Assembly (NCBI GenBank): GCA_025331435.1
Contig: JAIWNI010000034.1
Span: 124,001 to 188,000 of the forward strand
Direction: 5' to 3'
DNA: 64,000 bases
From: Choanephora cucurbitarum
Lineage: Eukaryota > Mucoromycota > Mucoromycetes > Mucorales > Choanephoraceae
Each line of letters begins with the position of its first letter. Position 1 is the stretch's first letter. Below, one piece after another: positions 1-51,016 of this stretch. Position numbers and translations under genes: made by a program. The notes beneath the pieces were generated by a model. It was given only the letters and a program-made list of their open reading frames with translations, was not told the DNA's origin and did no database searches.

Positions 1-1091
1 TCTCTAAACCAGCCTGAGTGGCTAAGGGTTGACTAGAGAACATTTGGCATAAATATGATATGCAAGGGGTGCGCGTATACAACCATCTTATTGTCGTATC
101 GAGTTACTTACGAACTTGAGACAACAGCGTGTGTACCATAAACTGTTGATCGACGAGATATAAAAGGTAAACTGTTTGTTTTCATTCTTTTTTTTTTTCT
201 GCAAAAGACAAAACAAAGAGAAGATACAGTTGCTCCAATTGGTCATTTCTACTTTTTTAAAGAAAAAAAAAAGTCGGATTTTGGAAATAAAGTTAAATCC
301 GTAACTGCGATTGAATTAAACACTCTATACGGATCAAAGCTTATTTGATTAGAATCAACAGGTTAAAGAAAGTCCATTTAATGGCATCAATGAAATAGAT
401 CAACTTGGATTGAACAAAACACTAGCTCTTTGGGTTGCTTATAGGAATGCCGTACTTGAGCTTTTCAGGTGGCAAAGGGCTTGTTCTTGATGGTTATTGT
501 TGAAGATTCAGTGATTGTTTGATGGATGGTGCAGACCTTGGATCTAGAATTGATTAGAGGTATCTAATATGGGTTCATCTTTGGCAATGCAGAACTACTT
601 TAGGTGCGTCATCCTATCTCCAGGCACCCTGTAGCTCGATTACTTGACAGGGTTATATTGCAGAATTTACTGTCATCTTTATCATTATCTTATGATAAGC
701 TTAACTATATCATATAGTACAATAGAAGCTGGTATAGAACAAGGTATTACTATCACTGGTGTAAAAACTAGAAGCGAATTTAAAGATCAGGATACAGAGT
801 AACAGCTTAGAGAGGATCAATGGCAATAGCTTGTATCAAATGAATTATAAGAAATTATAAGGATTTCTTTTTATTTGGACATGAGAAACTAAAAGATACT
901 TTTTAGGTGTATATAAATATATGTAAATGGATGGCATGAGATTAACAGTGGGATAAGAGAAAATGACTTTTTTTGTATATGACAAACTTTTTAGAAGAAA
1001 TGAGGTTTAAGAATTACAAAATGTACAGGAGAGGATGATGATGTAGAGATGAAAAATGTATATATATGTGTGTGTGTGTGGCTTGAGAAAT
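1..1091. other. Gene-free left flank
   Basis: I see no supported gene here. The stretch is AT-rich with many stops in all frames. A short alternating TA/TG run at about 1059-1079 lies just beyond the stop codon of the minus-strand gene and is probably in its 3' region. Weak coding-like traces on the minus strand near 400-560 are too broken to name. Confidence 0.6.
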
Positions 1092-4601: not shown

Positions 4602-5627
4602 CTAATATCTTGTTGCCCCACCTCTGTGGGCAAGGACATATCTCAGTCTTTTGGGCATGCTTGCAATGAGATTACTCCAATCTTTTGGCCTGAAACTGTC
4701 CCATACTTCTTGCAAGCATGCCCGGTGAGCTTCTGCGTTGGGGAAGCGCCCGTGTCTGCTTCGGTAGGCCTGCACTCGTCGCTTCATGATCATCCAAAGA
4801 TTTTCGATCGGGTTTAAATCTGGCGACTGTGCAGGCCAGTCTAGCACCTTCAATCCCTTCTCCAACTTCCAATCTTTTGCAGATCTGCATCTATGAACAG
4901 GAGCCCCATCTTCCATTAGTATCAGATTTCGCTCCCGTCCATAGAATTCAAGGAGAGGGCCATTGTATATAGACGATACAAAGCCTTCTCCTTTGCGTTC
5001 AATATCGCTGCAGAAGTGGAGTCGGGATTTACGACCATACCTGATGGCACCCCAAACCATCAAGCTGGTCCTACCACTCTTGAAACTAGGTGCTAGACAT
5101 TCTTCGAAGTACTTTTCAAACGGTAGGCGCCAAACCATCACCTTCGCAGAATTTTTGCCGTTTTCGAACGAACTTTCATCCGTCCAAATCACCTTCTTCC
5201 AGTCTTCCACTGTCCAGTGCTTGTATTTTTTTGCAAAGTCGAGTCTTCTTCTTCGGTGGAAGGCATTTAGGAATGGCTTCTTCTGTGCTACTCGGCTTCT
5301 ATAACACATTCTGCGCAATGCACGACGAACGGTGTCCCTGTGAACCTTGACAGGCAAAGAGGACGTCAATTCGGCCAAAGTTGCTCTCCTGTTGAGCACA
5401 ATGACCCGCTTAAGAATTCTTAAAACTCTGGGAGTGAGTTTTCTAGGTCTTCCAGATCCTTTAGCACGATCTGTTGTACCTTGCAATTTTTGCCTTCTCA
5501 AGAGTGTGTATACGCTGGCCAATTTTACACCTGCAGCTGTTGAAATTTGCTTAGCTTTCATACCATTTTGGCTTAGTTTGACAATAAGACGTTTTTCTGC
5601 ATCAGTTAAGTGGGTTCTTTGAGCCAT
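4602..5627 (-). CDS. Tc1-type DD34E transposase
   Basis: Intronless 341 aa, the usual length for Tc1 transposases. It has a bipartite N-terminal helix-turn-helix (about residues 5-110) with a GRPRKL hook-like linker near 59, then a DDE core: D150 in WTDESSF, D240 in MEDGAPVH and E275 in DLNPIENLW. There are 34 residues between the second Asp and the Glu, the DD34E signature of the Tc1 family. It acts by cut-and-paste transposition at TA sites. No stop or frameshift interrupts it and all three catalytic residues are present, so it may be active. Confidence 0.97.
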   Translation of the reverse strand: MAQRTHLTDAEKRLIVKLSQNGMKAKQISTAAGVKLASVYTLLRRQKLQGTTDRAKGSGRPRKLTPRVLRILKRVIVLNRRATLAELTSSLPVKVHRDTVRRALRRMCYRSRVAQKKPFLNAFHRRRRLDFAKKYKHWTVEDWKKVIWTDESSFENGKNSAKVMVWRLPFEKYFEECLAPSFKSGRTSLMVWGAIRYGRKSRLHFCSDIERKGEGFVSSIYNGPLLEFYGRERNLILMEDGAPVHRCRSAKDWKLEKGLKVLDWPAQSPDLNPIENLWMIMKRRVQAYRSRHGRFPNAEAHRACLQEVWDSFRPKDWSNLIASMPKRLRYVLAHRGGATRY

Positions 5628-8240: not shown

Positions 8241-10724
8241 TTAACCGCTACAGCTGACACAAGCATCTGGATTGTCCAATGAGCAGGCAATAGCAGCCAT
8301 ACCATCTGTTATGTTCTCAACTTCTTCAGTCTTCTCTACAGACTCCTGAGAGACAACCAAACGTGTAGCGCTTTGGGGATCTGATCTCAAATACTGCATG
8401 CCAGTCTTTAAGCCTTTCTTCCAAGAGTAAAAGTGCATGGAAGACATACGACTATAATTTGGCTCGCTAGTGAAAAGATTAAGAGCTTGAGATTGATCAA
8501 TGAAAGCAGCACGATCTACAGCCATGTCAATAATCACACGCTGAGAAATTTCCCATACTGTCTTGTAGAGTGCCTTGATATCATCAGGAATAGCTGCTAT
8601 CTTTTGAATTGAGCCATTATCAGCTTGGATTAATAAGTTTCTCATTTCTGGTTTCCATAGGCCACGCTCAGCTAAGCTCATAATCAGATGAGGATTGATT
8701 GAGTGGATATCACCAGTAGCTCCACGGTGAACAAGCATCATGCTTTGGTAAGGTTCAATGCTGTCATTGTTGCCAAGGATCTGACTTGTGGTAGGGGTAG
8801 GCATCAAGGCAAGTAAGACAGAATTACGAATGCCATGAGTTTTAATTTTAGAGCGCAAAGTAGTCCAATCAAGACGATCAGAACCATCCACCGACCACAT
8901 GTCATGTTGAAATATACCTCGACTTACAGGAGATGCCTCATAAGTAGAATAAGATCCGAACTTCTGTGCAAGCTCATTAGAAGCCTCGAGAGCAGCAAAA
9001 TACATAGATTCAAAGATAGACTTATTTAACTGACGTGCTTCAACAGAGTCAAAAGGATAGGCCATTTTCAAGAAAACATCGGCTAACCCTTGAACACCCA
9101 AGGCGACTCCGCGATGCTTAAGTGCAGCTTCTCTAGCTTCTTCTAATGGATAAGCATTGATATCGATCATTTTGTCCAGGTTCTTGACAGCCACCTTGAC
9201 GACGTCATGTAACTTGACGAAATCAAATGTACCATCTTCATTCACACATTTTGTGAGAGACACAGAGGCAGCATTGGCGGAACCAATCTCTTCGTCATCA
9301 GCATACTGCATATTAGCAGGAGAAAGACTTGATCCAGTGATAATACCCAAGTTTTTCTGGTTGCTCTTCTCATTGATAGCATCTTTATAGCACATAAAAG
9401 GCATACCACTTTCCATTTGAGCATCCAAGATCGAAAACCAAAGCTTCTGAGCCGATACAGTTTTTCTAGCTTTACCAGCTTTTTCATAAGATAAATAAAG
9501 GTCTTCAAATGCTTGACCAAACGAACTGTCAAGACCAGGACATTCATTAGGACACATCAAAGACCATTCCCCATTTTCCTCTACACGCTTCATAAATAAA
9601 TTGGGAATCCAAAGGCCGAGGAGCAAGTGACGAGCACGTAAGTTTTCTTCACCGTTGTGTTTTGAGAGATCAATATATTCAAATATATCTGGGTGCCAAG
9701 GCTCAAGATAGATTGAGTAGGTACCTTTGACCTTTCTAGCGCCAGGTGTAATGAAACGGGCTGCGTCATTGAATACACGCAACATAGGAATGATACCATT
9801 AGACGTTCCGTTGGTTCCAGCAATGTAAGATCCTGAAGCACGAATCTTTTGACAGCTCATGCCAACAGAACCAGCTCCTTTGGCTACACGAGCACATGTG
9901 GCTACTGTATCATAAATACCCTCAATACTGTCATCCTTCATCTGTATCTCATAGGCACTGGCTAGCTGACCACTATTCGTACCTGCGTTCAGCAAAGTTG
10001 TAGGCTCAAAGCTAAACAAGAGGCGAGATGTGTAATCGTATGTAGAGAAAGCGGCTTCCAAATCTTCTCCATGGATAGCTAAAGCAACACGCATAAATAA
10101 ATGTTGTGGTCGCTCTACAATCTTCTCATCCAACTTCAACAAGTAGTTTTGTTCCAATGTCTTAAATCCAAAATAAGTCAGATAGAAATCGCGCTGGTAA
10201 TCGATGGCGGCATCAATCTTATCAGCATGCTTCAATACGAGGTCAAGAAAAGGCTTAGCAATGACAGGATTAGGACCTCCTGATTTGGGATGCTTATGGT
10301 TATAGAGATCTTGCATGACTTGAGAGAACTTATCATGGGTCTCCTTTTGAAGGTTTGAGATTGAAATTCTAGCTGAGAGAATAGCATAGTCTGGGTGAAT
10401 GCCAATCATGTTAGCAGCTATTTCAGCAGCTAAGTTATCGAGTTGAACAGTGGTGATACCAGGATACATAGCAGAAACAACCTATCAAATAGTGTCCGAA
10501 TGACTTGAGAGGTCATGTAATACTATAGTTCATTATATGTACCTTTTGAGCAATCATAGGAGGGTCGACTTTGCTTTCGTCAAGACCTTTGCAGAGAATG
10601 CTGATGCGGGAACTGATCTTGTCGAAAAAGACTTTCTCTTGGGTACCATCTAACAGGCCATCAGTCGCTCATTCTTATGTGGCTTGACGAACTTTGCAAA
10701 ATTACCTCTCTTGATAACATACAT
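8241..10724 (-). CDS. RNR1-like: Ribonucleotide reductase large-subunit homologue, catalytic residues lost
   Basis: Three exons (10706-10724, 10543-10649, 8241-10481) give 788 aa. The whole class I RNR alpha architecture is there: N-terminal ATP cone (MYVIKRDGTQEKVFF), the specificity-loop region (KDDSIEGIYDT; GSYIAGTNGTSNG), the barrel (LEPWHPDIFEYID; NQKNLG; HGIRNSVLLALMPT) and a C-terminal CVSCSG tail. The catalytic positions are changed. Where active enzymes have SNLCTE this protein has SSLSPA (about residues 426-431), removing Asn, the thiyl-radical Cys and Glu. The two redox Cys are Ala (near 218 in QLASAYE and 444 in GSANAAS). The Tyr pair of the radical path (YYLR) is QYLR. It therefore should not reduce ribonucleotides. 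It could regulate or scaffold an active paralogue. The frame is intact and the promoter has ACGCGT. Confidence 0.93.
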
Positions 10725-47077: not shown

Positions 47078-49188
47078 ATGACACCTTCTGGGCATGATTC
47101 AGTTTTATCGTTCGAAACTCGACTTGACTTGTCAGATAATGCTTCTTAGTAAAAAAGAGTTCCCAAAAAAAATAGGTTCATCTCAATTAATCTTTAAAAA
47201 AGTCTTCCTTCTAGTCTATTCTTACCTCGATCAGGTCGTTTTAGCCGAAAACAACATGCAACTTTTGTCCACCAATTACTCTTGAGACGCAATGGACTTG
47301 ACTCGCTCGAAATCTATACAAAAGCCCTTTCACAATTCAAACATCATCTGATGGAACTCTCCTTAAGAGAAAATCACTTCAAGAAGTTTCCACCTCAAAT
47401 AGTGATGTTTGAAAACTTGGTGTCGCTATCTCTAGCTCAAAATCTGTTGCAACATGTTGAAATAGGTGTTTTGCCTCGGTTGGGTCGTCTTCAATGGCTC
47501 AATTTAGGTCATAATCGATTAGAAAATTTGCCAGCCGATCTCTTTCAATGCCGAGAATTAAGAGGGTTAAATCTAGAAAGCAATCAATTCAAAGGCATGC
47601 CATAAGTTCAATGAGAGACTACTTTCTCTAACCTTTCTCTCTCTCTTCTTTTTTTAAAAAAAAACAAATAGTAATTCCACTTGTTCTCTGCTATCTACCT
47701 CGACTTGAAATACTTATGCTTCAAAAGAACAAAATTGAATTTATTCCATCCGACTATCGCCTACCAAGTACATTACAGACACTTAATCTATCATTTAATC
47801 AGTTAAATTCCGTACCAGACACACTTGTTTATCATCCACCGCGTTACCTGTCTCATTTACATCTCTCAGGCAACACCTTGCAGACATTGCACCCTTCATT
47901 CTTATCTGTAGGTTACACCCATCTTGTCAGTCTGGACCTGCATACCTGTCACCTTACTCAACTATCCGATGATTTCTTCCAACGATTGGGCAGATGCACA
48001 GAATTTAAACGACTGAATCTAGCCATCAATCACCTCAAGGCGCTACCTTCCACACTGGGACAGGTCAAGAGCTTACAATGGCTCAATCTAAATGACAATC
48101 AACTTCGACAAGTACCACCTACCATGGCCAATCTAACAGAACTTGTCAAGCTAGGCCTTGTTCAGAACCAGATTGAATCTCTTCCTCCTTTTCTCTTTTT
48201 AGGTATGCTTCAGTTACAGAAACTCGATGTGCGTCGGAACCAATTGAGGTATCTACCTTCGTCTCTGCTGGTACTAGCACCCAAGGAAGAACTAGATGGT
48301 CATGTTGATCTGACTGTACCTCACTCTGTCTTCTATACACGTCGACATCAACAAGGCGGATCACTAAAGACGTTGTTGGTCTATGAAAACCCAATGATCG
48401 AATCGCTGGACGGTCTCTTGGCTGATTTGGATACCGACAAGGACGAGACAGCCAGAGCCATCCAGCTTGCCAGCTTAGATGAGACCCAGGAGATCTTGGC
48501 ACTAGCCGGCTCGCCTGAGGAAGGCATGCAGTTATTAAAGGCCTCCAAGAGATCGCCACTGGATCAAATCCTGTTTCAACACCTGATGACACGCATAGCT
48601 CCCTTAAAGGAAATGATGCTACAGCAGTATCTGACAAAGATGCATCCACAGGACATAGACCAGACATTCTCAAGTGAACACGTACCACTTTTGATCCGAT
48701 CCTTTGCCGAGACATATGCTCAACAGTGCGATTACTGTGATGGATGGTATACCTGGACTTCTGTTCAGATAGGTTACCTGTCTCGCTTATGTCGTTATCG
48801 ATTACAGGTACCGATACGCTTTCAGCTCTGTTCATTTCGATGTGCTGTAGAGGCCATGATGCGGGTACAAAAGGCCTCTCTTGATTGGGAAAGAAAGAAG
48901 AAGAAGACATCGGATCCACCTGAATTATCCAGTTCGAGATTCTTCCGAGATCGTGTAACTCATATAGCCTCAAGTATTCTACATACGCGAACATCACCAC
49001 CACCGCCTTTACCCCTCTTGTCCAGCACAAGAGAACCACCAGCGATCATGTCACTTGCTTCAAGAATAGTGGAATGTATCCTTCAAGTAGACAGTACACC
49101 TACACCCTTGCCTCTGTCAACACCTACACCTAATCCAACCGGTTTTCATCATTTACCTCGAGACGCGATTCGTCTTGAACGATTTTGA
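47078..49188 (+). CDS. Leucine-rich repeat protein with C-terminal Cys-rich region
   Basis: Exons 47078-47148, 47215-47594 and 47672-49188 give 655 aa. About 11-12 LRRs of the LxxLxLxxNxLxxLP type cover residues 50-340 (LMELSLRENHFKKFP; LQWLNLGHNRLENLPADLF; LQWLNLNDNQLRQVPPTM). A helical part follows, then CDYCDGWYTW...C-R-Y...C-S-F-R-C at about 510-550, a possible zinc site, and a Pro/Thr-rich end. No signal peptide, kinase or GTPase domain is seen. Intron 47595-47671 appears to be GC-AG; with it, LRR spacing (ESNQFK|VIPLVLCYLPRLEIL) is perfect. A protein-interaction scaffold is inferred. Confidence 0.83.
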
Positions 49189-49348
49189 AAATAAAAAACA
49201 AACCATCCAATCAAAATGCGTCATCGTCAAGTAGAAATAACCTATGCTACCTTTTTTTTTTTTGAGGGGAAACCCTTTTCTTTTTTTTTTTATTTTGGAC
49301 AAAGAAAGAGAGTGTACCTGTGTATATAGATAGATAGAATAGATAGTC

Positions 49349-51016
49349 ATGAGTCAGACAAAAGAAACCAACGCAAACCAACTTGATTCTCAAGATGTAG
49401 GACTTATCTTTGTTCGCGAATATTATACTTTCCTGAACAAGAAGCCTCATCGTCTTCACGCCTTTTATAACAAAGATTCACTCTTTGTCCGAGGCGATGA
49501 AGGTACTATTACCAACACAGCTAAGGGTCAAGAAGTAAAGTAGACAGACTACTTGAAAGAAACAATCGACTTATTTTTTGATTTTTAGGAAATCCGTAAA
49601 AAGATTGAAGAATGTCGATTTGAAGACTGTAAAGTTTTGGTGACTCAAGTAGACAGTCAAACCTCTGCCAACGGTGGCATATTGATTCAAGTCCTTGGTG
49701 AGATGTGCAACCATAACGGCCCCTCTCAAAAGTTCAGTCAAACCTTCTTTTTGGCTCCTCAGCCTAATGGTTTCTATGTCTTGAATGACATCTTTCGATT
49801 CTTGAAAGATGAAGTTGAGATGGATTATTACAGTTGCGACCCTACTACCCCTCCTCCCGTCAGAAAGGAATCGCCTATCCCCTTGAGACGAATTGAGACT
49901 GTCATTGTCGAGACACCCGTCTCTCCTGTGATGTACGAACAAAGGATTCAGGAGCCCATGATGAAGCCTGTAGAGACTATCGTGATCGAGAGAGCAGATT
50001 CACCTGTGCCTGTGGTAGAGGAAAAGAAAAAGAAGAGTCATGGAGATAAGGCATCTAAGGCTGAAGCTAAGGCTGAGCAAAAGGCAGAGGCTGTTAAGGC
50101 GGAACCCAAGGTAGAGACTAAGCCAGAACCTAAGGTTGAACCCAAGGTTGAAGTGAAGACAGACACTGCCAAGGCTGAATCTAAAGTAGAAGCCAAGTCA
50201 GAGCCTAAGGTTGAAAAGACAGAATCTAAGGTAGACCAAAAGACAGAACAAAAGCAACAACAACAAAAACAAACAGAAAAGATCAACCCTCCTCCTGCTC
50301 AAGCTTCTCCTAAACCTTCTGCTCCCAAGACTTGGGCTAATTTGACTGCTGCTGCTGCTGCTCCTTCTCCTACCAGTACTGCTGCCACACCTTCTGCCAC
50401 ACCTTCTGCCACACCTACAAACACTAATACTACTACTACTACTACTACGACTGCTACTGCTGTTACTGGCAACAGTACTACACCCTCTACTCCTGCTGTT
50501 ACATCTACACCCAACACAGAAAAGACAAATGAAAAGCCTCAAAACAAGAATCAATCCAATCGTAAAAGTAAGTTAAAAAGAAAAGTAATGATACAAACAA
50601 GACTAACATACAACTTAAAAAATAAAGTCATTGATCCTACACAGATCTTTGTTAAACTGGTCAATGAATCAGTTCATGAAGAACAACTGCTTGAAGCATT
50701 TAACAAGTTTGGTACAGTCAAATCCTGTAATATTGCTCGTCAAAGAAGCTGTGCCTTTGTCGAATTTGCTTCTCCTGATGCCTGTCAAAAGGCTCTGGCT
50801 CAACACAAAGTCACCCTGAGTAACGGACAACATGTCTTGGCTGAAGAACGTCGTTACAATGTGGGTCAACAGAACAACCATCAAAGATACCAAAACAATC
50901 GACCTCAAAACAACTCATTCGATCAACGTCGATCCAACAACAATCGCCGTCAAAACCAACAAAACCAAAATACGCGTCAACAACAAGGCAAAGGAAGAGG
51001 CAGTGGTAACAAATAA
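49349..51016 (+). CDS. NTF2-like plus RRM protein (G3BP/Nxt3-like)
   Basis: Three exons (49349-49534, 49589-50567, 50628-51016) give 517 aa. Residues 12-135 are an NTF2-like domain: VGLIFVREYYTFLNKKPHRL, HAFYNKDSLFVRGDEG, FSQTFFLAPQPNGFYVLNDI with FRF. A long Lys/Glu/Pro/Thr linker follows with EVK-type repeats. An RRM sits at about 385-455 (QIFVKLVNESVHEEQLLEAF, CAFVEFASPDACQKAL), then an Asn/Gln/Arg-rich tail (RRSNNNRRQNQQNQN; GKGRGSG). The order is that of G3BP/Bre5/Nxt3, stress-granule RNA-binding and Ubp3-cofactor proteins. Intron 50568-50627 has GTAAGT and a GACTAAC branch; it is 60 nt and stop-free, so retention would add 20 residues before the RRM. Confidence 0.9.

Follow-up and report, generated by a model that had tools for sequence, protein, structure and literature searches.

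The analysed window, a 64,000-nt stretch of the Choanephora cucurbitarum genome, carries on its minus strand a gene whose 788-aa product resembles the large (alpha) subunit of class I ribonucleotide reductase (RNR); we refer to this protein as pseudo-alpha. The gene consists of three exons separated by two GT-AG introns (Table 1). The original prediction had described an intact 788-aa frame, and this was borne out for the spliced product, which contains zero internal stops. The unspliced gene is not one continuous ORF: it holds six stops, all upstream of the exon 3 frame, which lie in introns or in the stretch of exon 2 that is read out of frame. Pseudo-alpha matched human RRM1 over residues 1–787 against 1–791. 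A C. cucurbitarum protein of 98% identity (P0001, 17 of 788 residues different) scored above the curated Pfam cut-offs for all three of the ATP-cone, all-alpha and barrel domains, and the window frame 8241–10469 alone gave the all-alpha and barrel domains (not the ATP cone).

Table 1. Features of the pseudo-alpha locus and its neighbourhood (window coordinates)
Feature	Position	Strand	Basis
Pseudo-alpha gene, 3 exons, 788 aa	8241..10724	-	
Two MCB-like sites (GTCGCGTC and ACGCGT), ~85–100 bp upstream of the start codon	10808..10826	-	motif scan; function putative
Exon 1 (MYVIKR + 1 nt)	10706..10724	-	splice model
Intron 1, GT-AG, 56 nt	10650..10705	-	splice model
Exon 2, N-terminal half of the ATP cone; E11, F15, D16, K17, I18 kept	10543..10649	-	splice model and clade alignment
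Intron 2, GT-AG, 61 nt	10482..10542	-	splice model
Exon 3: rest of the ATP cone (D57), specificity site (D226, K243, R256, loop 1), rebuilt loop 2	8241..10481	-	alignment and domain search
Exon 3, continued: replaced active site (A218, S427, S429, A431, A444), Q738-Y739, tail C775/C783/C786, stop	8241..10481	-	alignment
Tc1/mariner-type transposase ORF, 341 aa, DDE_3 and HTH_Tnp_Tc3_2 domains	4602..5627	-	
Leucine-rich-repeat protein (490 aa), then NTF2+RRM (G3BP-like) protein	47716..51016	+	

In each of the genome's three RNR alpha genes, intron 1 interrupts the KRDG Asp codon in phase 1. It is the only intron that pseudo-alpha has in common with the active B-type alpha (contig C343, minus strand), which has six; the second pseudo-alpha intron lies at codon 43 in phase 0 and is not shared with the B-type gene. 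The 742–743-aa gene models of several relatives start at a Met four codons past pseudo-alpha intron 2, so the 5' exons of these relatives were probably missed by annotators. The transposase ORF lies ~2.6 kb from the RNR gene, and nuclear genes elsewhere in the window encode, among others, CRM1/exportin repeats, a PMT mannosyltransferase, a hexokinase and an EF-Tu-type GTPase.

Catalytic residues in the window protein and its paralogues

In human RNR, catalysis and substrate binding are described as involving Ser202, Ser217, Cys218, Gln288, Arg293, Asn427, Cys429, Glu431, Cys444, Thr604-Thr607 and Tyr737-738 (PMC5819950, available text). Human and window numbering coincide to about residue 660 and the window is one higher at the YY site, where human Y737-Y738 corresponds to window 738–739. 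At these positions pseudo-alpha has P202, S217, A218, P288, V293, S427, S429, A431, A444, T604-P605-T606-T607 and Q738-Y739. The replacements named in the original prediction could all be read in the window protein, namely SSLSPA at residues 426–431 in place of SNLCTE, Ala at both redox-cysteine positions (218 and 444) and Gln-Tyr in place of the radical-path YY. Missing are therefore the thiyl-radical Cys429 with Asn427 and Glu431, the redox pair Cys218/Cys444 and the radical-path Tyr737-Tyr738; present are the three domains, a C-terminal CxxC (CVSC at 783–786) and the specificity-site residues D226, K243 and R256 with loop 1. The earlier description of the retained parts stood for the ATP cone, loop 1, the barrel and the CxxC and failed for loop 2, which has been rebuilt, so that the specificity loops are not both kept. 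Because the catalytic and substrate residues are replaced, the window protein should lack normal NDP binding and be unable to generate or use a thiyl radical, and NDP reduction with the small (beta) subunit is predicted to be absent. The retained residues support the suggestion that pseudo-alpha may still bind nucleotides.

A search of the same genome for a second large subunit with SNLCTE was made among the best-scored candidates in the 33.4-Mb assembly, which may be incomplete and in which the window lies on a 279,686-bp contig. Two canonical alphas were found, on contigs C306 and C343; each has SNLCTE together with the redox cysteines, YY and CxxC. The window protein was 60% identical to the C343 alpha and 55% identical to the C306 alpha, and the C343 alpha (on a contig of 118,935 bp) was identical over 799 aligned residues to a C. 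cucurbitarum protein (P0046). At least one RNR beta was found among the best candidates, with the C-terminus FTLDADF, the R2 C-terminal heptapeptide that is described as bound by mouse R1 in the available text of PMC3483043.

MCB sites drive S-phase genes in fungi. Upstream of pseudo-alpha there are two MCB-like sites, and the C306 and C343 alphas have three each within 250 bp upstream; 0.34% of the 120-bp stretches of the window contain at least two such sites. These motifs suggest that pseudo-alpha may be co-expressed with the active alphas.

Class II RNR is B12-dependent, and for this reason an nrdJ gene assigned to Mucorales as a B12-independent class II RNR is possibly a misassigned class I alpha. 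The assignment appears in the available text of PMC7928374.

Conservation across the Mucorales clade

Relatives of pseudo-alpha were collected from 5.8 billion proteins. Among the best 120 of 8000 scored relatives, beyond which further dead alphas would be missed, 15 had a replaced active site, giving 16 members with the window protein. The members include proteins of ten named species (Choanephora cucurbitarum, Gilbertella persicaria, Mycotypha africana, Mucor lusitanicus, Mucor mucedo, Rhizopus microsporus, R. arrhizus, R. stolonifer, Cokeromyces recurvatus and Benjaminiella poitrasii), and five further rows carry no organism label. A Mucor lusitanicus gene model without residues 427–431 (P0032) was excluded from all clade counts, and P0009, a near-copy of P0007, from the tree and the regional-constraint comparison. 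In a tree of 71 of 153 sequences, the 15 members used formed a single clade with an SH-aLRT of 100 and a stem length of 0.56 changes per site; the window protein falls in this Mucorales clade, near the B-type alphas. The branch joining the dead clade to the core B-type alphas had a support of 20 and that joining it to all Mucorales B-type alphas in the tree 94 (neither starred), so the duplication may have taken place within core Mucorales or before their origin.

A profile search (best 120 of 8000 scored) again returned the dead clade first and found no dead alpha outside it; all 30 newly listed proteins had SNLCTE and YY. Among the best 120 matches there was likewise no dead alpha for Lichtheimia, Phycomyces, Cunninghamella, Syncephalastrum or Apophysomyces, though canonical alphas of these genera were listed, an absence that we regard as suggestive. 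None of the 106 other alignment rows, the two paralogues included, had a non-canonical residue at window positions 218, 288, 293, 427, 429, 431, 444, 738 or 739 (gaps aside), and the replacements are therefore not due to chance.

Of the 16 members, 13 to 16 had replaced the radical cysteine, the redox pair, the catalytic Glu, the first Tyr of the radical path and the substrate contacts in loop 2. C218, Q288, R293, E431 and Y737 were kept in none; C429 was kept in 1, C444 in 3, N427 in 7, Y738 in 6, A605 in 2 and S606 in 1, and S202 was among the phosphate contacts replaced in most or all. C218 and C444 never occurred together. Residue 429 was H, N, S, Y or C and residue 431 D, N or A, and the position of Tyr737 was occupied by Gln or His in 16/16. 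The persisting substrate contacts were S217 and T604 (16/16 each) and T607 (15/16). No sister species was found to keep the full catalytic set, the only member with Cys429 being that of Rhizopus stolonifer (P0017), from which C218, E431, C444, Q288, R293 and Y737 are gone.

Residues T53, D57, K88, D226, S227, K243, R256, I262-G264 (A263 and G264 included) and S269 and the tail cysteines C775, C783 and C786 were kept in 16/16. Cone residues before about position 40 are visible in 6/16 members, the other models lacking them, and F15, D16, K17 and I18 were kept in all six. In human RNR, a change of Asp57 is reported to abolish dATP inhibition and a change of Asp16 to disrupt the hexamer (PMC5819950, available text). 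Loop 2 has been rebuilt with Q288P, R293V/I and a basic TPG[AS][RK]K[VI]K[GS] stretch that is nearly the same in all 16 members, one of which has the final Ser.

We then measured constraint by amino-acid conservation and codon-position differences. Regional identity was taken as mean pairwise identity with eight sequences a side (dead versus active B-type), matched by species or near relative. The specificity-site and dimer region 222–285 had an identity of 0.92 in the dead proteins versus 0.93 in the active B-type alphas, while the active-site region 420–450 had 0.63 versus 0.96, region 596–625 0.67 versus 0.97, the linker 744–771 0.40 versus 0.74 and the 17-residue tail 0.845 versus 0.92. 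Over the whole dead protein identity was 0.74. In 32-residue steps with seven sequences a side, 239–398 differed from the B-type by −0.03 to 0.04 and 399–494 and 591–686 by 0.22–0.30; in this stepwise comparison region 687–744 had an identity of 0.83–0.84. Region 222–285 ranked 7th of 634 stretches by identity and only 54th by loss of constraint relative to the B-type, because stretches around 320–398 were equally well kept.

Among the 317 sites fixed in active alphas, 195 were kept in all 15 members compared and 31 were lost in all, 14 of the latter being re-fixed to a different residue, with three of these in loop 2 (286, 288 and 293). For hand-picked regulatory sites fixed in active alphas, 24/25 were kept by all members, and of 22 hand-picked active-site positions fixed in active alphas, 7 were lost throughout the 15 members, 9 in some of them and 6 in none. 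Loss by all members thus affected 7/22 active-site positions versus 24/295 sites elsewhere (Fisher p 0.0026). We take this pattern to mean that sensing and assembly, but not catalysis, have remained under selection.

In favour of a decaying duplicate (a young pseudogene) or of a sequencing or assembly error, the dead clade does evolve about 2.4 times faster than the B-type (median ratio, 21 species pairs). We nevertheless consider this extremely improbable, given the 98%-identical protein in another Choanephora record, the uninterrupted relatives in nine other named species (predicted proteins, many of whose models lack the first exons, with the R. stolonifer model marked partial), the 195 sites kept throughout and the codon differences between pseudo-alpha and the B paralogue of 0.33, 0.22 and 0.58 at positions 1, 2 and 3. 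The original proposal of a conserved pseudoenzyme agrees with these results, as no listed member of the Mucorales clade has a complete active site and canonical paralogues occur in the same genome; pseudo-alpha is almost certainly a conserved non-catalytic protein.

The AlphaFold model of P0001, made with a 123-sequence alignment, had a pLDDT of 86.6 and a pTM of 0.88, and its best PDB match was human RRM1 (3hnc; TM 0.92 by query and 0.98 by target, rmsd 1.6). The model shows compatibility of pseudo-alpha with the RRM1 fold and is not independent proof of it, because the input alignment (123 of 150 proteins) consisted mostly of active alphas. When the input was limited to 14 clade members, no usable model resulted (pLDDT 44.0).

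Possible roles of the retained parts

One conceivable role is a different chemistry in the old barrel. The whole barrel fold is kept in the model, residue 429 is His in 9/16 members and residue 431 Asp in 7/16, and S217, T604 and T607 persist. Nevertheless, the substitutes at 429 and 431 vary within the clade and conservation of region 420–450 falls below the protein-wide level, and because the replaced centre is not conserved we rank a repurposed enzyme low, as very unlikely.

The mechanism that we propose is a non-catalytic RNR large subunit, alpha-prime, kept by selection in core Mucorales. Its cone would bind ATP or dATP and its specificity site a dNTP, and it would join active alpha in mixed dimers and hexamers, the likeliest partner being the B-type alpha on C343 as the nearer paralogue. 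Alpha-prime would supply its neighbour with loop 1 of the shared specificity site and with a CxxC arm that re-reduces the neighbour's active site. With the catalytic half of alpha-prime itself silent, the outcome would be a regulated, half-active RNR. Two descriptions of working RNR bear on this arrangement. The specificity site is placed at the dimer interface with loop 1 contributed by the neighbouring subunit (PMC5819950), in a wording of the available text that is also readable as both loops; and the tail of an adjacent R1 is said to enter the catalytic site and take over the disulphide (PMC3618301, available text, citing earlier work).

The CxxC tail is the discriminating clue. Because no member has both C218 and C444, the clade offers the CxxC no disulphide of its own to reduce, yet the CxxC is kept in 16/16 members while the linker has diverged. 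This is most simply explained if the arm acts on an adjacent active alpha. Parts given to a neighbour are kept and most self-used parts are lost, from which we infer mixed alpha/alpha-prime assemblies and hence the hetero-oligomerisation of pseudo-alpha with active alpha that had been suggested at the outset. The CxxC could have been kept for another role, such as glutaredoxin contact or structure. We give an even chance to the reading that alpha-prime senses dNTPs, pairs with active alpha in mixed assemblies and may re-reduce it in trans, the partnering being deduced from the pattern of kept and lost residues. The rebuilt loop 2, almost invariant in the clade, suggests a further function outside the alpha-prime model.

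The specificity-site and cone residues would be equally well kept by a homo-oligomer, and pseudo-alpha might instead be a stand-alone dNTP sensor or scaffold, whose homo-dimers or homo-hexamers bind ATP or dATP and interact with partners other than RNR, active alpha being absent from the complex. The retained cone, specificity site and dimer region agree with such a role; the 14 re-fixed sites, including those in loop 2, fit a new binding job; and a fungal RNR alpha can have a second function, as described for Neurospora crassa UN-24 in nonself recognition (PMC3618301, available text). This reading leaves the retention of the CxxC tail unexplained in a clade that has no redox pair, and we consider it unlikely.

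Pseudo-alpha might also be an inhibitory decoy that reduces RNR activity outside S phase by binding beta or capping active alpha. Region 687–744 is fairly conserved, the beta found ends in the heptapeptide bound by mouse R1 (PMC3483043), and the replacement of Tyr737 of the radical path is universal in the clade. Such a role is hard to reconcile with the upstream MCB-like sites, which suggest co-expression with the active alphas and not opposite timing, and a pure decoy needs no CxxC; we judge it distinctly unlikely.

Returning to the alpha-prime model, its widest form holds that the RNR large subunit of Mucorales is split in two: a catalytic alpha, and a dedicated alpha-prime without catalysis, in which the shared effector site, the dimer and hexamer contacts and the CxxC arm are kept and loop 2 is rebuilt as a fixed switch. 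We advance this form only tentatively.

In nearly all organisms, RNR determines dNTP pools and, through them, the fidelity of replication. If the alpha-prime model is true, a non-catalytic large subunit maintained by selection in cells would add a new level to the control of these pools. It would also be a natural case in which sensing is separated from catalysis, showing which parts of alpha may serve a neighbour. The source labels of most listed clade proteins are RNR alpha or large subunit, and Mucorales annotations therefore probably count one working RNR gene too many.

Comparison with known systems

The open literature searched yielded inactive alphas in betaherpesviruses only (PMC5469499, available text) and an inactive RNR partner on the beta side only, yeast Rnr4 (PMC3267527, available text). 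No paper was found there on the RNR large subunit in Mucorales and nothing relevant on RNR and pseudoenzymes, and the words 'inactive' and 'herpes' are absent from the main text, as available, of a family-wide RNR phylogeny (PMC9531940). A cellular, built-in regulatory RNR large subunit is thus of a kind that we did not find described in the open literature, which is not a claim that it is unpublished.

Pseudo-alpha has the domain order, fold, A-site, S-site and CxxC tail of active class I alphas such as the B-type alpha (C343, P0046) and human RRM1. It differs from them in the catalytic Cys, the redox pair, the catalytic Glu, Tyr737 and the base contact Q288, which are replaced in most or all of the 16 members, as are the phosphate contacts R293, S202, A605 and S606, while S217, T604 and T607 are kept. 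The betaherpesvirus R1 homologues HCMV UL45 and MCMV M45 are likewise alpha homologues without most catalytic residues, a likeness drawn from their published description, but they are viral and are reported to act on RIP1/NF-kB signalling (PMC5469499, available text). Viral descent of pseudo-alpha is unlikely because the window protein sits in a Mucorales clade near the B-type alphas, in a tree without viral sequences.

Among fungal proteins, yeast Rnr3 is likewise an extra alpha paralogue, but it is described as a minor catalytic subunit (PMC6545439, available text), whereas pseudo-alpha is without the catalytic residues. Neurospora UN-24 is a fungal RNR alpha whose C-terminal domain is reported to form a complex with yeast Rnr1p (PMC3618301, available text); it is a working large subunit, whereas the catalytic residues of pseudo-alpha are lost. 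Yeast Rnr4 (beta-prime) is described as an inactive RNR subunit paralogue that is required as the heterodimer partner of its active counterpart (PMC3267527, available text). Rnr4 is a beta subunit and pseudo-alpha an alpha whose partnering is proposed here; by analogy, alpha-prime would be the counterpart on the alpha side of yeast Rnr4 on the beta side.
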